From Paracoccus saliphilus (lineage in GTDB: Bacteria; Pseudomonadota; Alphaproteobacteria; Rhodobacterales; Rhodobacteraceae), in contig QKYL01000110.1 in NCBI GenBank assembly GCA_003255745.1, positions 62,001 through 126,000 on the forward strand: a DNA stretch of 64,000 bases, written 5' to 3'. Both the position numbers and the translations under genes were made by a program. The notes under the pieces were generated by a model. That model was not told the DNA's origin and made no database searches. It saw only the letters and a list, made by a program, of their open reading frames with translations. Below are positions 31,455-51,828 of this stretch, piece after piece. Within the stretch, counting starts at the first letter, position 1; every line of letters starts with the position of its first letter.

Positions 31455-32165
31455 TCAGACGCCGCGGCGGTTGCCCCACAAGATGACATGCAACTGCGGC
31501 AGCACGCGTGGCGTGAACCAGCGGTCTGTTGTCACCTTCTGGACCAGCCACAGCAGCCGGTCGGCCACGTCCTGAGCCGCCACCGGCAGGTCGGGATGGA
31601 CCTCGGGATTGCCCGGCTGCAGATACAGCGGCAGGTCCCGGTGGCGCTGCGCCAGGTCGCGCGCCCAGTCATAATCCCGGTCGTCGAAAATCACGATCTT
31701 CATCACCGTCTGCCCAGCCCCCTGCCCCGCCCGGATGCAGGCGGCAAGTGCGTCCAGATCCGGGCTTTCCCCGCTGGACGGGGGCTTGGGGCTCAGGACC
31801 AGCATGTGCAGCTGGTCGAACCAGTCGCGGGCGATCGACCCCTGCGTTTCCAGCGCAAAGCGATAGCCCGCGTCCCGGCCCCGCGCGATCAGCGGCCCGA
31901 AATCCTGGATCGCCGGGTTCCCACCTGAAATCGACACCGTCAGGGGTTGTCCACCCGACAGCGCCTCGACCTGGTCCCAGACCTCTTCGGACGTCATCTG
32001 CGCCCAGGTGTCGCGGAAGGCACTGTCCACCGCATGCAGCGAATCACACCACGAACAGCGGTAATCGCAGCCTCCGGCGCGAACAAAGACGGTGGGCTCT
32101 CCGATCAGGGCGCCCTCGCCCTGGATGGTCGGGCCGAAGATCTCGGCGATGCGCAGGCGCGTCAC
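31455..32165 (-). CDS. queE: 7-carboxy-7-deazaguanine synthase
   Basis: Radical-SAM enzyme that contracts 6-carboxy-tetrahydropterin to 7-carboxy-7-deazaguanine, the third step to preQ0 and queuosine. The 236-residue protein has the CxxxCxxC cluster motif at C33, C37 and C40 ([10 protein letters not shown]) after the conserved [10 protein letters not shown] start. The start is a GTG at 32165 that overlaps the queD stop (GTGA). It is the last gene of queC-queD-queE. Confidence 0.94.
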
Positions 32166-32515
32166 GGCCGGTACTCGGCCCAGGTCTTGGGCGTCTCGCT
32201 GACCTTGACGGCGCTGGTTTCCGGCCAGCGGGCGCGGCACCAGTCAAAGAAGTGGCGGGCCAGGTTCTCGGCCGTCGAGGGCACCTCCAGCAGGTCGTTC
32301 AGGTGGCGGTGATCAAAGCTGCCGTCGATATAGTCCTTGAGCGGCTTCAGCTCGTGATAATCGCGCACAAAGCCATCCCCGTTCAGGTCCGGCGCCGCCA
32401 GTTCGACCACCACGACATAGTTGTGGCCGTGCAGCCGCGCGCATTGGTGATCCACCGCCAAATGGTCCAGCCGGTGCGAGGCGCTGAAGTGAAACTCCTT
32501 GCTGATCCTGAACAT
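32162..32515 (-). CDS. queD: 6-carboxy-5,6,7,8-tetrahydropterin synthase
   Basis: Converts 7,8-dihydroneopterin triphosphate to 6-carboxy-tetrahydropterin, the second step to preQ0. The 117-residue protein has the zinc ligands H14 (SASHRL), H29 and H31 (RLHGHNY) and the catalytic cysteine C25; the later segment FDHRHLND holds another conserved histidine. The ATG shares one base with the queC stop and the gene overlaps queE by 4 nt, so the three genes are translationally coupled. Confidence 0.95.
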
Positions 32516-33222
32516 CACGCCCCCTGCACGGCATGGGCCGCGACGGCGGCCTGCCAGAAATCGGGATCCTCGTAATCGCTCGGGTCCGCAACGCCGGCCA
32601 GGTGAAACGCCTCGCGCCGCTCCACGCAGGTGCCGCAACGCCCGCAATGCCGCGCCCCACCCTTGTAGCAGGACCAGGTCTGGGCAAAGGGCGTGCCCGC
32701 ATGCGCACCCGCCACCACGATATCGGCCTTGGTCGCATTGACGAAGGGCACGTCCAGCGCGACATCGGCATAGCCCTCCAGCGCGGCCTTCTGCATGGCG
32801 GCAAAGGCATCGGTAAAGGCCGGGCGGCAGTCGGGATAGATGAAGTGATCGCCCCCATGCACGGCCGCCGCCACCGCGTCGTCACTGTTCGCGACCGCGA
32901 TCCCGAAGGCCACCGTCAGCATGATCGCGTTGCGGTTGGGCACCACGGTGACGCGCATCGTGTCCTCGGCGTAATGGCCGTCGGGCACGTCGATGTCGTC
33001 GGTCAGGGCCGAACCGGTCAACGCGGCGCCCAAGCCCGACAAGTCCACCAGGTGATGCGGCACGCCCAGCCGGCGTGCGCAGGCCAGCGCAAAATCCAGT
33101 TCCTTGCGGTGGCGCTGGCCGTAATTAAAGCTGACCAGCCGCGACAGGCGCCCCTGCGCGGCCAGCACATGGGCGAGCGATACGGAATCAAGCCCGCCCG
33201 AACAGACGAGAGTGGTTTTCAT
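32515..33222 (-). CDS. queC: 7-cyano-7-deazaguanine synthase
   Basis: ATP-dependent ligase/dehydratase that turns 7-carboxy-7-deazaguanine into preQ0. The 235-residue protein has the PP-loop SGGLDS at 8-13 and four zinc-binding cysteines near the C-terminus (C185, C193, C196, C199 in CYKGGARHCGRCGTC). The ATG at 33222 was chosen because MKTTLVCSGG begins the family fold and a ribosome binding site AAGGG precedes it. That site is also the 3' end of a preQ1-I-like aptamer, so translation of the whole que cluster is probably shut down by preQ1. Confidence 0.96.
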   Translation of the reverse strand: MKTTLVCSGGLDSVSLAHVLAAQGRLSRLVSFNYGQRHRKELDFALACARRLGVPHHLVDLSGLGAALTGSALTDDIDVPDGHYAEDTMRVTVVPNRNAIMLTVAFGIAVANSDDAVAAAVHGGDHFIYPDCRPAFTDAFAAMQKAALEGYADVALDVPFVNATKADIVVAGAHAGTPFAQTWSCYKGGARHCGRCGTCVERREAFHLAGVADPSDYEDPDFWQAAVAAHAVQGA

Positions 33223-33230
33223 TCTGTGAC

Positions 33231-33265
33231 CCTTGTTTTTGTGACCCGGGTAGGCTGCGACCGGA
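33231..33265 (-). promoter_or_regulatory. preQ1-I riboswitch upstream of queC
   Basis: Read on the minus strand, a 5-bp stem TCCGG / CCGGG (with one G:T pair) is preceded by nothing else, closes a loop that starts TCGCAG and ends with a C next to the stem, and is followed by an A-rich strand TCACAAAAACAAGG. This is the H-type pseudoknot layout of preQ1 class I aptamers: the loop TCGCAG and the end ACAAGG agree, from memory, with the Thermoanaerobacter tengcongensis aptamer. The final AAGG is the ribosome binding site of queC, 8 nt before the ATG, so binding of preQ1 should block translation. Downstream genes make preQ0, the expected regulon. Confidence 0.8.
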
Positions 33266-33326
33266 AAGCGCCCGGTTATCACTGCCGGCGCGGCTTGTGA
33301 AGGCGCGGCATGCCGGTGACGCCGGG

Positions 33327-49649: not shown

Positions 49650-49832
49650 ATGATCCGATTTTCCATCACCGCGACAGCCCTGCTTCTGCCCCAGCTGGCC
49701 CAGGCCCATCCTGGCCACCATGCCGAGGCCTCGGCCCTGCACCTGCTGACGCAGCCCGACCACCTGGCGACCATCGCGCTGATCACCGCGCTTGGGGTCG
49801 CGGCGTGGTTCCTGCTTCGGGGTCGCTCGTGA
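49650..49832 (+). CDS. Small exported/membrane protein inserted between ureA and ureB (HupE/UreJ N-terminus-like)
   Basis: A 60-residue protein with a signal peptide (1-19, likely cut after AQA) so that the mature form begins HPGHH, then one hydrophobic helix (about 39-56) and a basic C-terminus. The HPGHH start and histidines (H20, H23, H24, H31, H38) resemble the first part of HupE/UreJ nickel transporters, but the remaining helices of those proteins are missing. It abuts ureA with no gap and overlaps ureB by 4 nt (GTGA), so it is certainly translated with the urease genes. A role in nickel handling is an inference only. Confidence 0.75.
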
Positions 49833-50146
49833 CAGGCCCGATCATCCCGGGCGAAGTCATCGCGGCCGAGGGGGACATCCTGCTGAACCAAGGCCGCGCC
49901 ACCCTGACCGTCATGGTCGCGAATACCGGCGACCGGCCGATCCAGGTCGGCAGCCATTACCATTTCGCCGAAACCAACCCGGCACTGGATTTCGACCGCG
50001 CCGCCGCGCGCGGGATGCGCCTTGCGATCCCTGCGGGCACCGCCGTGCGGTTCGAACCTGGCCAGTCGCGGCAGGTGACGCTGGTGGGCTATGCGGGCCA
50101 ACGAAGGGTTCACGGCTTTCGCGGCCAGATCGGCGGTGCGCTGTGA
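49829..50146 (+). CDS. ureB: Urease subunit beta
   Basis: Structural subunit of urease, 105 residues. The family marks are [50 protein letters not shown] and the ending [10 protein letters not shown]. The start is a GTG overlapping the stop of the small upstream gene; an ATG-start alternative of suitable length does not exist. The gene overlaps ureC by 4 nt. Confidence 0.97.
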
Positions 50147-51828
50147 CGACCCTGTCGCGCGCCGATTACGCGGCGCTTTACGGTCCCACGACCGGCGACC
50201 GCATCCGCCTGGCCGACACGGAGATCATCATCGAGGTCGAGCGCGACCTGACCACCCCCGGTGAAGAGGTCAAGTTCGGCGGCGGCAAGGTCGTCCGCGA
50301 CGGCATGGGACAGTCCCAGGTGACCCGCGCGGGCGGCGCGATGGACACCGTCATCACCGGCGTCGTGGTCTTTGACCACCAGGGCATCGTCAAGGCAGAC
50401 GTCGGCATCCGCGACGGCCTGATCGCGGGCATCGGCAAGGCCGGCAACCCCGACACCCAGCCCGGCGTGACCCTGATCATCGGTCCGGGAACCGAGATCA
50501 TCGCTGGCGAAGGCCGCATCCTGACGCCCGGCGGCTTCGACTGCCACATCCACTACATCTGCCCGCAGCAGGTGGATCATGCCCTACATTCCGGCGTCAC
50601 AACCCTGCTGGGCGGCGGCACCGGCCCCGCGCATGGCACGCTGGCCACCACCTGCACGCCCGGCCCCTGGCACATCGCCCGCATGCTAGAGGCCTGCGCC
50701 GACCTGCCCGTCAACATCGGCATTGCGGGCAAGGGGAACGCGTCGCTGGCGGCGCCGCTGGAGGAACAGGTCCGCGCCGGCGCCTGCGCACTGAAGCTGC
50801 ACGAGGATTGGGGCACCACGCCCAAGGCCATCGACACCTGCCTGACCGTGGCGGACGCAATGGACGTGCAGGTGATGATCCACACCGACACGCTGAACGA
50901 ATCAGGCTTTGTCGAGGATACGATGGCCGCGATCGGCGGCCGCACAATCCACGCCTATCACACCGAAGGCGCGGGCGGCGGGCATGCCCCCGACATCATC
51001 CGCATGGTCGGCATGACCAACGTGCTGCCGTCGTCCACGAACCCCACGCGCCCCTACACGGCCAACACGGTCGAGGAGCATCTCGACATGCTGATGGTGT
51101 GCCACCACCTGGACCGCCGGGTGCCCGAGGACGTGGCCTTTGCCGAGAGCCGCATCCGCAAGGAGACCATCGCGGCCGAGGATATCCTGCACGACCTGGG
51201 CGCATTCAGCGTGATCTCGTCCGACAGCCAGGCGATGGGCCGGATCGGAGAGGTGATCATCCGGACCTGGCAGACCGCGTCCAAGATGCGCCAGCAGCGC
51301 GGCCGCCTTGAGGGCGAACAGGGGCAGAACGACAACATCCGCGCCCGCCGCTATATCGCGAAATACACGATCAATCCGGCCATTGCGCATGGGGTCGGCG
51401 GCCATATCGGCAGCATCACGCCGGGCAAACGCGCCGACCTGGTCCTGTGGTCGCCCGCCTTCTTTGCCGTCAAGCCGGAAATGGTGCTGGTCGGCGGCCA
51501 GATCAGCGTGGCGCAGATGGGCGATCCGAACGGATCGATCCCGGTGCAGCCGATCTTTTCGCGGCCCATGTGGGGGCACAACCGCCGCGCGTCGGCGCTG
51601 TTCCTGTCCCGCGCGGGGCTGGAGGCCGGGGCCGGAGAGGCACTGTCCAAGACTCTGATCGCGGTTGAACATACCCGCAGCATCGGCAAGGCCGACATGG
51701 TGCTGAACGCCGCCATACCCGAAATAGAGGTCGATCCCGAAACCTACGAAGTGCGGGCCGATGGCGAATTGCTGACCTGCGAGCCGGCAGCGGAACTGCC
51801 GCTGGCACAACGCTATTTCCTCTTTTGA
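50143..51828 (+). CDS. ureC: Urease subunit alpha (catalytic)
   Basis: Hydrolyses urea to ammonia and carbamate at a dinickel centre. All metal and catalytic residues are present: H135 and H137 ([10 protein letters not shown]), the lysine to be carbamylated K218 (ALKLHEDWG), H247, H273, the active-site flap C320 and H321 (MVCHHLDR) and D361 (SSDSQAMGR), each one position later than in the Klebsiella enzyme. The protein has 561 residues and starts at a GTG overlapping ureB. It is followed after 13 nt by ureE. Confidence 0.99.

Follow-up and report, generated by a model that had tools for sequence, protein, structure and literature searches.

A putative translational preQ1-I riboswitch in the queC leader of Paracoccus saliphilus and its relatives across the alphaproteobacteria

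The tRNA base queuosine is made from the precursor preQ1: queC, queD and queE make preQ0, and queF converts preQ0 to preQ1. In the literature that we searched, no RNA regulator of queuosine is described in the alphaproteobacteria, including rhizobial symbionts, relatives of Brucella, marine roseobacters and Paracoccus. A preliminary description of the 64,000-nucleotide stretch of Paracoccus saliphilus DNA analyzed here (the window) read a preQ1 class I (preQ1-I) riboswitch in the ribosome binding site of queC. This locus thus raises the question of whether the queC leader is such a switch, and how widely it is shared.

NCBIfam models bear out the gene names QueC, QueD and QueE for three reading frames on the minus strand: queC (7-cyano-7-deazaguanine synthase; 32515..33222; TIGR00364, 165.5 bits against a cut-off of 150.3), queD (6-carboxytetrahydropterin synthase; 32162..32515; TIGR03367) and queE (7-carboxy-7-deazaguanine synthase; 31455..32165; TIGR03365, 355.8 bits). 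The queD ATG overlaps the queC stop codon (TGATG at 32515) and the queE GTG overlaps the queD stop codon (GTGA at 32165), and these frame overlaps support the translational coupling that had been proposed for the set. A gene assigned to FnrL by its NCBIfam model lies upstream on the same strand.

Minus strand 33265-33231 reads TCCGG TCGCAG CCTA C CCGGG TCACAAAAA CAAGG, after which come GTCACAGA and, at 33222, the ATG of queC. The layout first described, namely a 5-bp stem, a loop starting UCGCAG, a C beside the 3' stem strand, an A-rich strand and an ACAAGG 8 nt from the ATG, proved exact, coordinates included. Stem P1 pairs UCCGG (33261..33265) with CCGGG (33245..33249) as U-G, C-G, C-G, G-C and G-C, the U-G pair being outermost, and its two strands are identified by their covariation. 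Within the loop, UCGCAG (33255..33260) is both L1 and the 5' strand of the predicted P2, equivalent to U6, C7, G8, C9, A10 and G11 of the Thermoanaerobacter tengcongensis (Tte) aptamer, with C9 as the anti-Shine-Dalgarno base. L2 is CCUA (33251..33254), and the cytosine at 33250 (Tte C15) is the specificity base, predicted to pair with preQ1. The A-rich crossing strand L3, UCACAAAAA (33236..33244), leads to CAAGG (33231..33235), which matches Tte C30, A31, A32, G33 and G34. Sequence and conservation mark this tail as both the 3' strand of P2 and the Shine-Dalgarno sequence of queC, 8 nt 5' of the ATG. All of these parts lie on the minus strand.

A pattern built from Tte only (GTCGCAG-N2-4-ACCC-N6-12-AACAAGG) matches the 64-kb window once, at the aptamer, and matched none of 100 shuffled sequences. 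Folding of the single queC leader sequence showed nothing special (z = +1.34) with a pseudoknot-free program, which cannot draw this kind of structure. No terminator for transcription attenuation was found in the window.

Rfam detects the site only weakly. Nothing is reported there at gathering scores, and RF00522 (PreQ1), the family named in the preliminary description as a check, has no match across the source genome. In a 301-nt scan, RF00522 aligns end to end on the correct strand and in the correct register, at 12.8 bits (E = 4.7) against a gathering cut-off of 39, which is a detection threshold and not a structural criterion. The same model reaches its cut-off at none of 20 related loci (19 diverse queC leaders and one queF leader), and in twenty queF leaders it finds nothing even at E values up to 10. 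The Rfam model does not detect the alphaproteobacterial lineage of preQ1 elements. Given these sub-threshold scores, Rfam alone would have led us to discard the aptamer wrongly; its conservation settles that it is real. Elsewhere in the window, Rfam gives a match to 5_ureB_sRNA (RF02514; 50292-50581, minus strand, 73.5 bits) antisense to the urease large-subunit gene (49792-51828, plus strand), which may reflect only conservation of the coding strand.

We built two covariance models of our own. R1 took in the Tte sequence with an extra base added to hold the register, and is to that extent not natural; R2 came from natural sequences only. In the source genome, R2 scores the queC element at 54.5 bits and a second element, before queF, at 44.3 bits, with no third convincing element. 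Five weak R1 matches in the genus (E ~0.08) all lie directly before queF and were for this reason kept rather than treated as noise.

An orthologous queC is present in 49 of 125 sampled Paracoccus genomes, and the element lies directly upstream of it in 48 of the 49 (the exception is G098), with loop and A-rich strand preserved, as the preliminary description had expected of relatives that keep queC. The queuosine pathway itself is patchy in this genus, with queF in 87 of the genomes, and many strains seem to be preQ0 salvagers. Across a family-wide sample, 33 of 38 queC-bearing genomes carry the element upstream of queC; those without it are G177, G245 (at a contig edge), G291, G383 and G394. 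In G394 (locus L105), the aptamer is knocked out naturally: transposase-like sequence abuts the 3' half of the element, CCCGGTCAACAAAACAAGG, which is preserved ahead of queC.

An unbiased pattern scan of the public genome collection found at least 118 stretches. Among the matches listed (n = 97), the downstream gene is queC in 88, queD in four and queF in four, while one is cut by the end of the locus; all 96 readable elements in this list are therefore upstream of queC, queD or queF. The distinct parsed elements among the matches listed come mainly from Hyphomicrobiales (63) and Rhodobacterales (23), with carriers that include Rhizobium, Mesorhizobium, Brucella and roseobacters. A few more in this list are from Rhodospirillales and unplaced alphaproteobacteria, four are from gammaproteobacteria (Pseudomonadales and Aeromonadales by NCBI ranks), and one is from a record placed in Bdellovibrionales. 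In every lineage among the matches listed, the start codon mostly follows the aptamer by 5-11 nt. In a class-wide sample, 5 of 8 genomes with Rhodobacter-type QueC (60-100% identity) have the element, and none of 23 with a diverged QueC (33-49% identity) does. This association, together with a starred gammaproteobacterial clade of the QueC tree (Pseudomonas, Oceanimonas and Zobellella) that carries a short form of the element, points to a joint movement of the riboswitch and queC.

The conserved positions are those of a preQ1-I pocket. UCGCAG is present in 210 of 214 distinct elements, AAAAC in 212 and a tail of AAAACAAGG or AAAACAGGA in 211. L2 with the specificity cytosine is almost always CCUAC or CCCAC, ending in AC in practically all 214, and the cytosine itself is invariant apart from one Paracoccus queF copy. 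P1 varies in a compensatory manner: pair 1 occurs as A-U, C-G, U-A and G-C, that is, in four Watson-Crick types, and pair 2 as C-G and G-C, while the innermost G-C is invariant. P1 scores 0.248 for covariation, compared with 0.057 after shuffling (0 of 500 shuffles scored as high), and sliding the partner strand destroys the signal; an earlier alignment gave 0.134 against 0.026. The stem covariation that the preliminary description had looked to is thus present. The P2 bases (C9-G33 and G11-C30) are present and nearly invariant, with two queF copies having a U9 still able to pair with G. This near-invariance leaves no covariation to assess, and the case for P2 is the identity of these bases with those of the crystallised Tte aptamer, where C9 and G33 are paired and the pocket has C7-G11-C30 as its ceiling (PMC10622847, PMC11625349).

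Types I-III of the class were reportedly defined by McCown et al. in 2014. Under the published rule, type II has AC before the 3' P1 strand, a G5-C16 floor and a C7-G11-C30 ceiling (PMC11625349), and it is the AC, rather than UC, at this position that assigns our elements to type II. The type II pocket bases (U6, C7, G8, C9, A10, G11, the A before the specificity cytosine, the G5-C16 floor and an A-rich strand with C30 at its end) are all present and nearly invariant, and the elements precede queuosine genes, their tail doubling as the Shine-Dalgarno sequence, as in type II. These bases, the covarying P1 and the tie to queC, queD and queF support the original reading of an H-type preQ1 class I pseudoknot.

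Comparison with known members refines this placement. The Tte type II riboswitch (PDB 3Q50, 6VUI) shares the UCGCAG loop start, the AC before the 3' P1 strand, the G5-C16 floor, the A-rich L3, an ACAAGG tail that is the Shine-Dalgarno sequence, a length of ~34-35 nt and translational action. The Paracoccus element differs in its CCGG-rich P1 and in an L2 one base longer (CCUA versus UAA in Tte; CCYA in almost all relatives), the final A of which marks type II. The agreement with Tte noted in the preliminary description stands for the start of the loop and the end of the element but not for the length of the loop, which at 11 nt is one above Tte. About half of the relatives depart further, with a 4-bp P1 and an L3 shorter by 2-4 nt, for 29-30 nt in all. 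Type I (Carnobacterium, Neisseria, Haemophilus) likewise forms H-type pseudoknots on que genes but is marked by UC ahead of the 3' P1 strand, UU following the 5' strand and CUA in the tail, and it binds two ligands (PMC8752633, PMC11625349). We rejected membership in type I, as none of these marker bases is present and AC and AACAAGG stand in place of UC and CUA. Type III (Escherichia coli yhhQ) is also proteobacterial and very small, with the AC motif and a buried Shine-Dalgarno sequence, but it has a pyrimidine-rich loop, UU after P1 and a 36-nt wild type (PMC10622847), whereas our elements have a UCGCAG loop and queC, queD and queF as targets. Membership in type III was rejected on the loop, which is not a short pyrimidine-rich one starting with UU. 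The preliminary description considered a fully translational switch of about 35 nt in a very GC-rich genome unusual; the mode of action and the size are not so in themselves, as the 34-nt Tte riboswitch is alike in both respects (PMC11625349).

Two forms of the element can be distinguished by L3, which has at least 7 nt before C30 in the long form and 5 nt in the short form. The length of L3 tracks that of P1: a fifth, outer P1 pair is possible in 100 of 101 long elements versus 16 of 112 short ones. After thinning to one element per genus, class and pair, the counts are 62/63 and 11/52, where base composition predicts 50% and 37%. Loci from the plain pattern scan, which used no covariance model, agree (34/34 long versus 10/63 short, among the matches listed). 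There are 10 changes of L3 class in the QueC tree. Within a short-form group, a starred Rhizobium clade (L218, L271, L286, L295) has a long L3 and an A-U pair; conversely, a starred Aureimonas clade within a long-form group has a short L3 and no fifth pair. Supported branches yield three independent L3-P1 contrasts, which run in the same direction in 2.4 of 3 on average and never in the opposite one, a result that is not significant alone. In our reading, L3 crosses the minor groove of P1 and has to be as long as that helix requires. With its 4-bp P1, the short form measures 29-30 nt from P1 to GG and is found before queC in the Rhizobiales and before queF in Paracoccus; it is shorter than the natural E. 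coli type III element of 36 nt (PMC10622847) and also below the 34 nt of Tte. We think it possible, at slightly under even odds, that the alphaproteobacterial elements are a distinct, uncatalogued preQ1-I lineage whose short form would be the smallest known natural riboswitch aptamer.

The second copy in Paracoccus precedes queF, the preQ0 reductase gene (TIGR03139). This variant, CCGG-UCGCAGCCCAC-CCGG-NCAAAACAGGAG, ends 4-8 nt before the queF ATG. By our count, 48 of the 64 queF genes that stand alone in Paracoccus have it, and many of these genes belong to genomes that lack queC. In the source genome it is CCGGUCGUAGCCCACCCGGUCAAAACAGG, directly before queF on another contig (G000:C165:156189-156219; L129, L330), with U in place of the anti-Shine-Dalgarno C. 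The Paracoccus queF copy at L176 has the specificity C changed to U and an altered A-rich strand, AAGGCAGG, which may reflect decay or an altered ligand. Other genomes or contigs (L051/L107, L068/L108, L109, L230, L294, L300 and L303) have an element of the queC type 56-100 nt ahead of queF rather than of queC, an arrangement that looks like retention of the switch after loss of queC-queD-queE.

At 11 loci the queF or queD gene is ~40-110 nt away from the element, and five of these carry a short ORF that ends on the start codon of the gene. The ORFs begin 8-10 nt behind the aptamer core and encode 26 aa at L108, where the product begins with a queC-like LKTA, 10 aa at both L245 and L292, 33 aa at L256 and 29 aa at L300. 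The distant-gene loci beyond these five are L051, L109, L230, L294, L303 and L199. The short ORFs apparently relay translational control to the distant queF or queD, and such ORFs are what translational control would favor once the first gene is lost.

The best sigma-70-like pair 5' of P1 consists of a predicted -35 box, TTCACA (33296..33301, minus strand), and a predicted -10 box, TAACCG (33273..33278, minus strand), which ends 7 nt before P1; a stricter consensus promoter scan of the window found none. The best -10 box ends 3-12 nt before P1 in 80% of Paracoccus queC leaders (10% when shuffled) and in 93% of queF leaders (16% when shuffled); in most leaders of both kinds the distance is 5-10 nt. 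Because the predicted -10 box ends just before P1, transcription should begin at about the first aptamer base, and the queC leader is probably just the aptamer including its ribosome binding site.

We assign a probability of roughly 90% to the reading of the queC element as a translational, type II-like preQ1-I riboswitch. In the mechanism that we infer, the transcript would start at about the first aptamer base, with a 5' leader of essentially aptamer and ribosome binding site. At low preQ1, the tail would be free, ribosomes would load on CAAGG, and translation of queC would pass to queD and queE through the overlaps between stop and start codons. Abundant preQ1 would pair with C33250, held between P1 and P2, and fix the pseudoknot so that loop bases C9 and G11 hold tail bases G33 and C30. 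The Shine-Dalgarno sequence would then be occluded and preQ0 synthesis would fall. The second, shorter copy would act likewise on queF and lower preQ1 synthesis.

The same pseudoknot might instead have preQ0, the product of QueC, as its physiological ligand. The queC-queD-queE set makes preQ0, and the affinity of the Tte type II aptamer for preQ0 (KD 35 nM; PMC10622847) is only 17-fold below that for preQ1. However, queF also carries a copy and consumes preQ0, so preQ0 would be an odd repressor there, while feedback from preQ1 is sensible at both steps. To our knowledge, all solved preQ1-I aptamers prefer preQ1, and we consider preQ0 an improbable ligand. It is very improbable that the conserved block is a DNA operator or a protein-binding RNA site for a queuosine repressor. 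Its place at the predicted transcription start and the invariance of most of its bases would suit such a site, but an RNA acting at translation best accounts for the compensatory changes in P1, the tracking of P1 length by L3, the fixed position relative to the Shine-Dalgarno sequence and the identity with a crystallised preQ1 aptamer. Chance resemblance or an ordinary ribosome binding site, which the Rfam E value of 4.7 in a short scan might suggest, is already refuted by conservation in dozens of genera, always at queuosine genes (for the scan, among the matches listed), as well as by the lack of any match to the Tte-derived pattern in 100 shuffles.

A translational preQ1-I riboswitch of type II is a known kind of element; what is new here is the short form with its link between L3 and P1 length, the queF copy in Paracoccus and the relay ORFs. 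Reviews place type II in Pseudomonadota, giving no detail (PMC11625349), and two surveys report preQ1 riboswitches in few proteobacterial groups (PMC2258182, PMC3766115). Our search of the literature on preQ1 riboswitches together with Paracoccus, Rhodobacter, Rhizobium, Rhizobiales, Agrobacterium, Sinorhizobium or Brucella found no description of these elements, although an earlier listing under type II is possible. The alphaproteobacterial elements apparently form a large, widespread and uncatalogued family. The P1/L3 length trade-off provides a ready-made natural mutational series for the geometry of a minimal ligand-binding pseudoknot, and if the short form is what it seems, the record for the smallest natural aptamer may drop to 29-30 nt. 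If our reading is right, hundreds of genomes would gain an annotated regulator of queC and queF that Rfam has missed.
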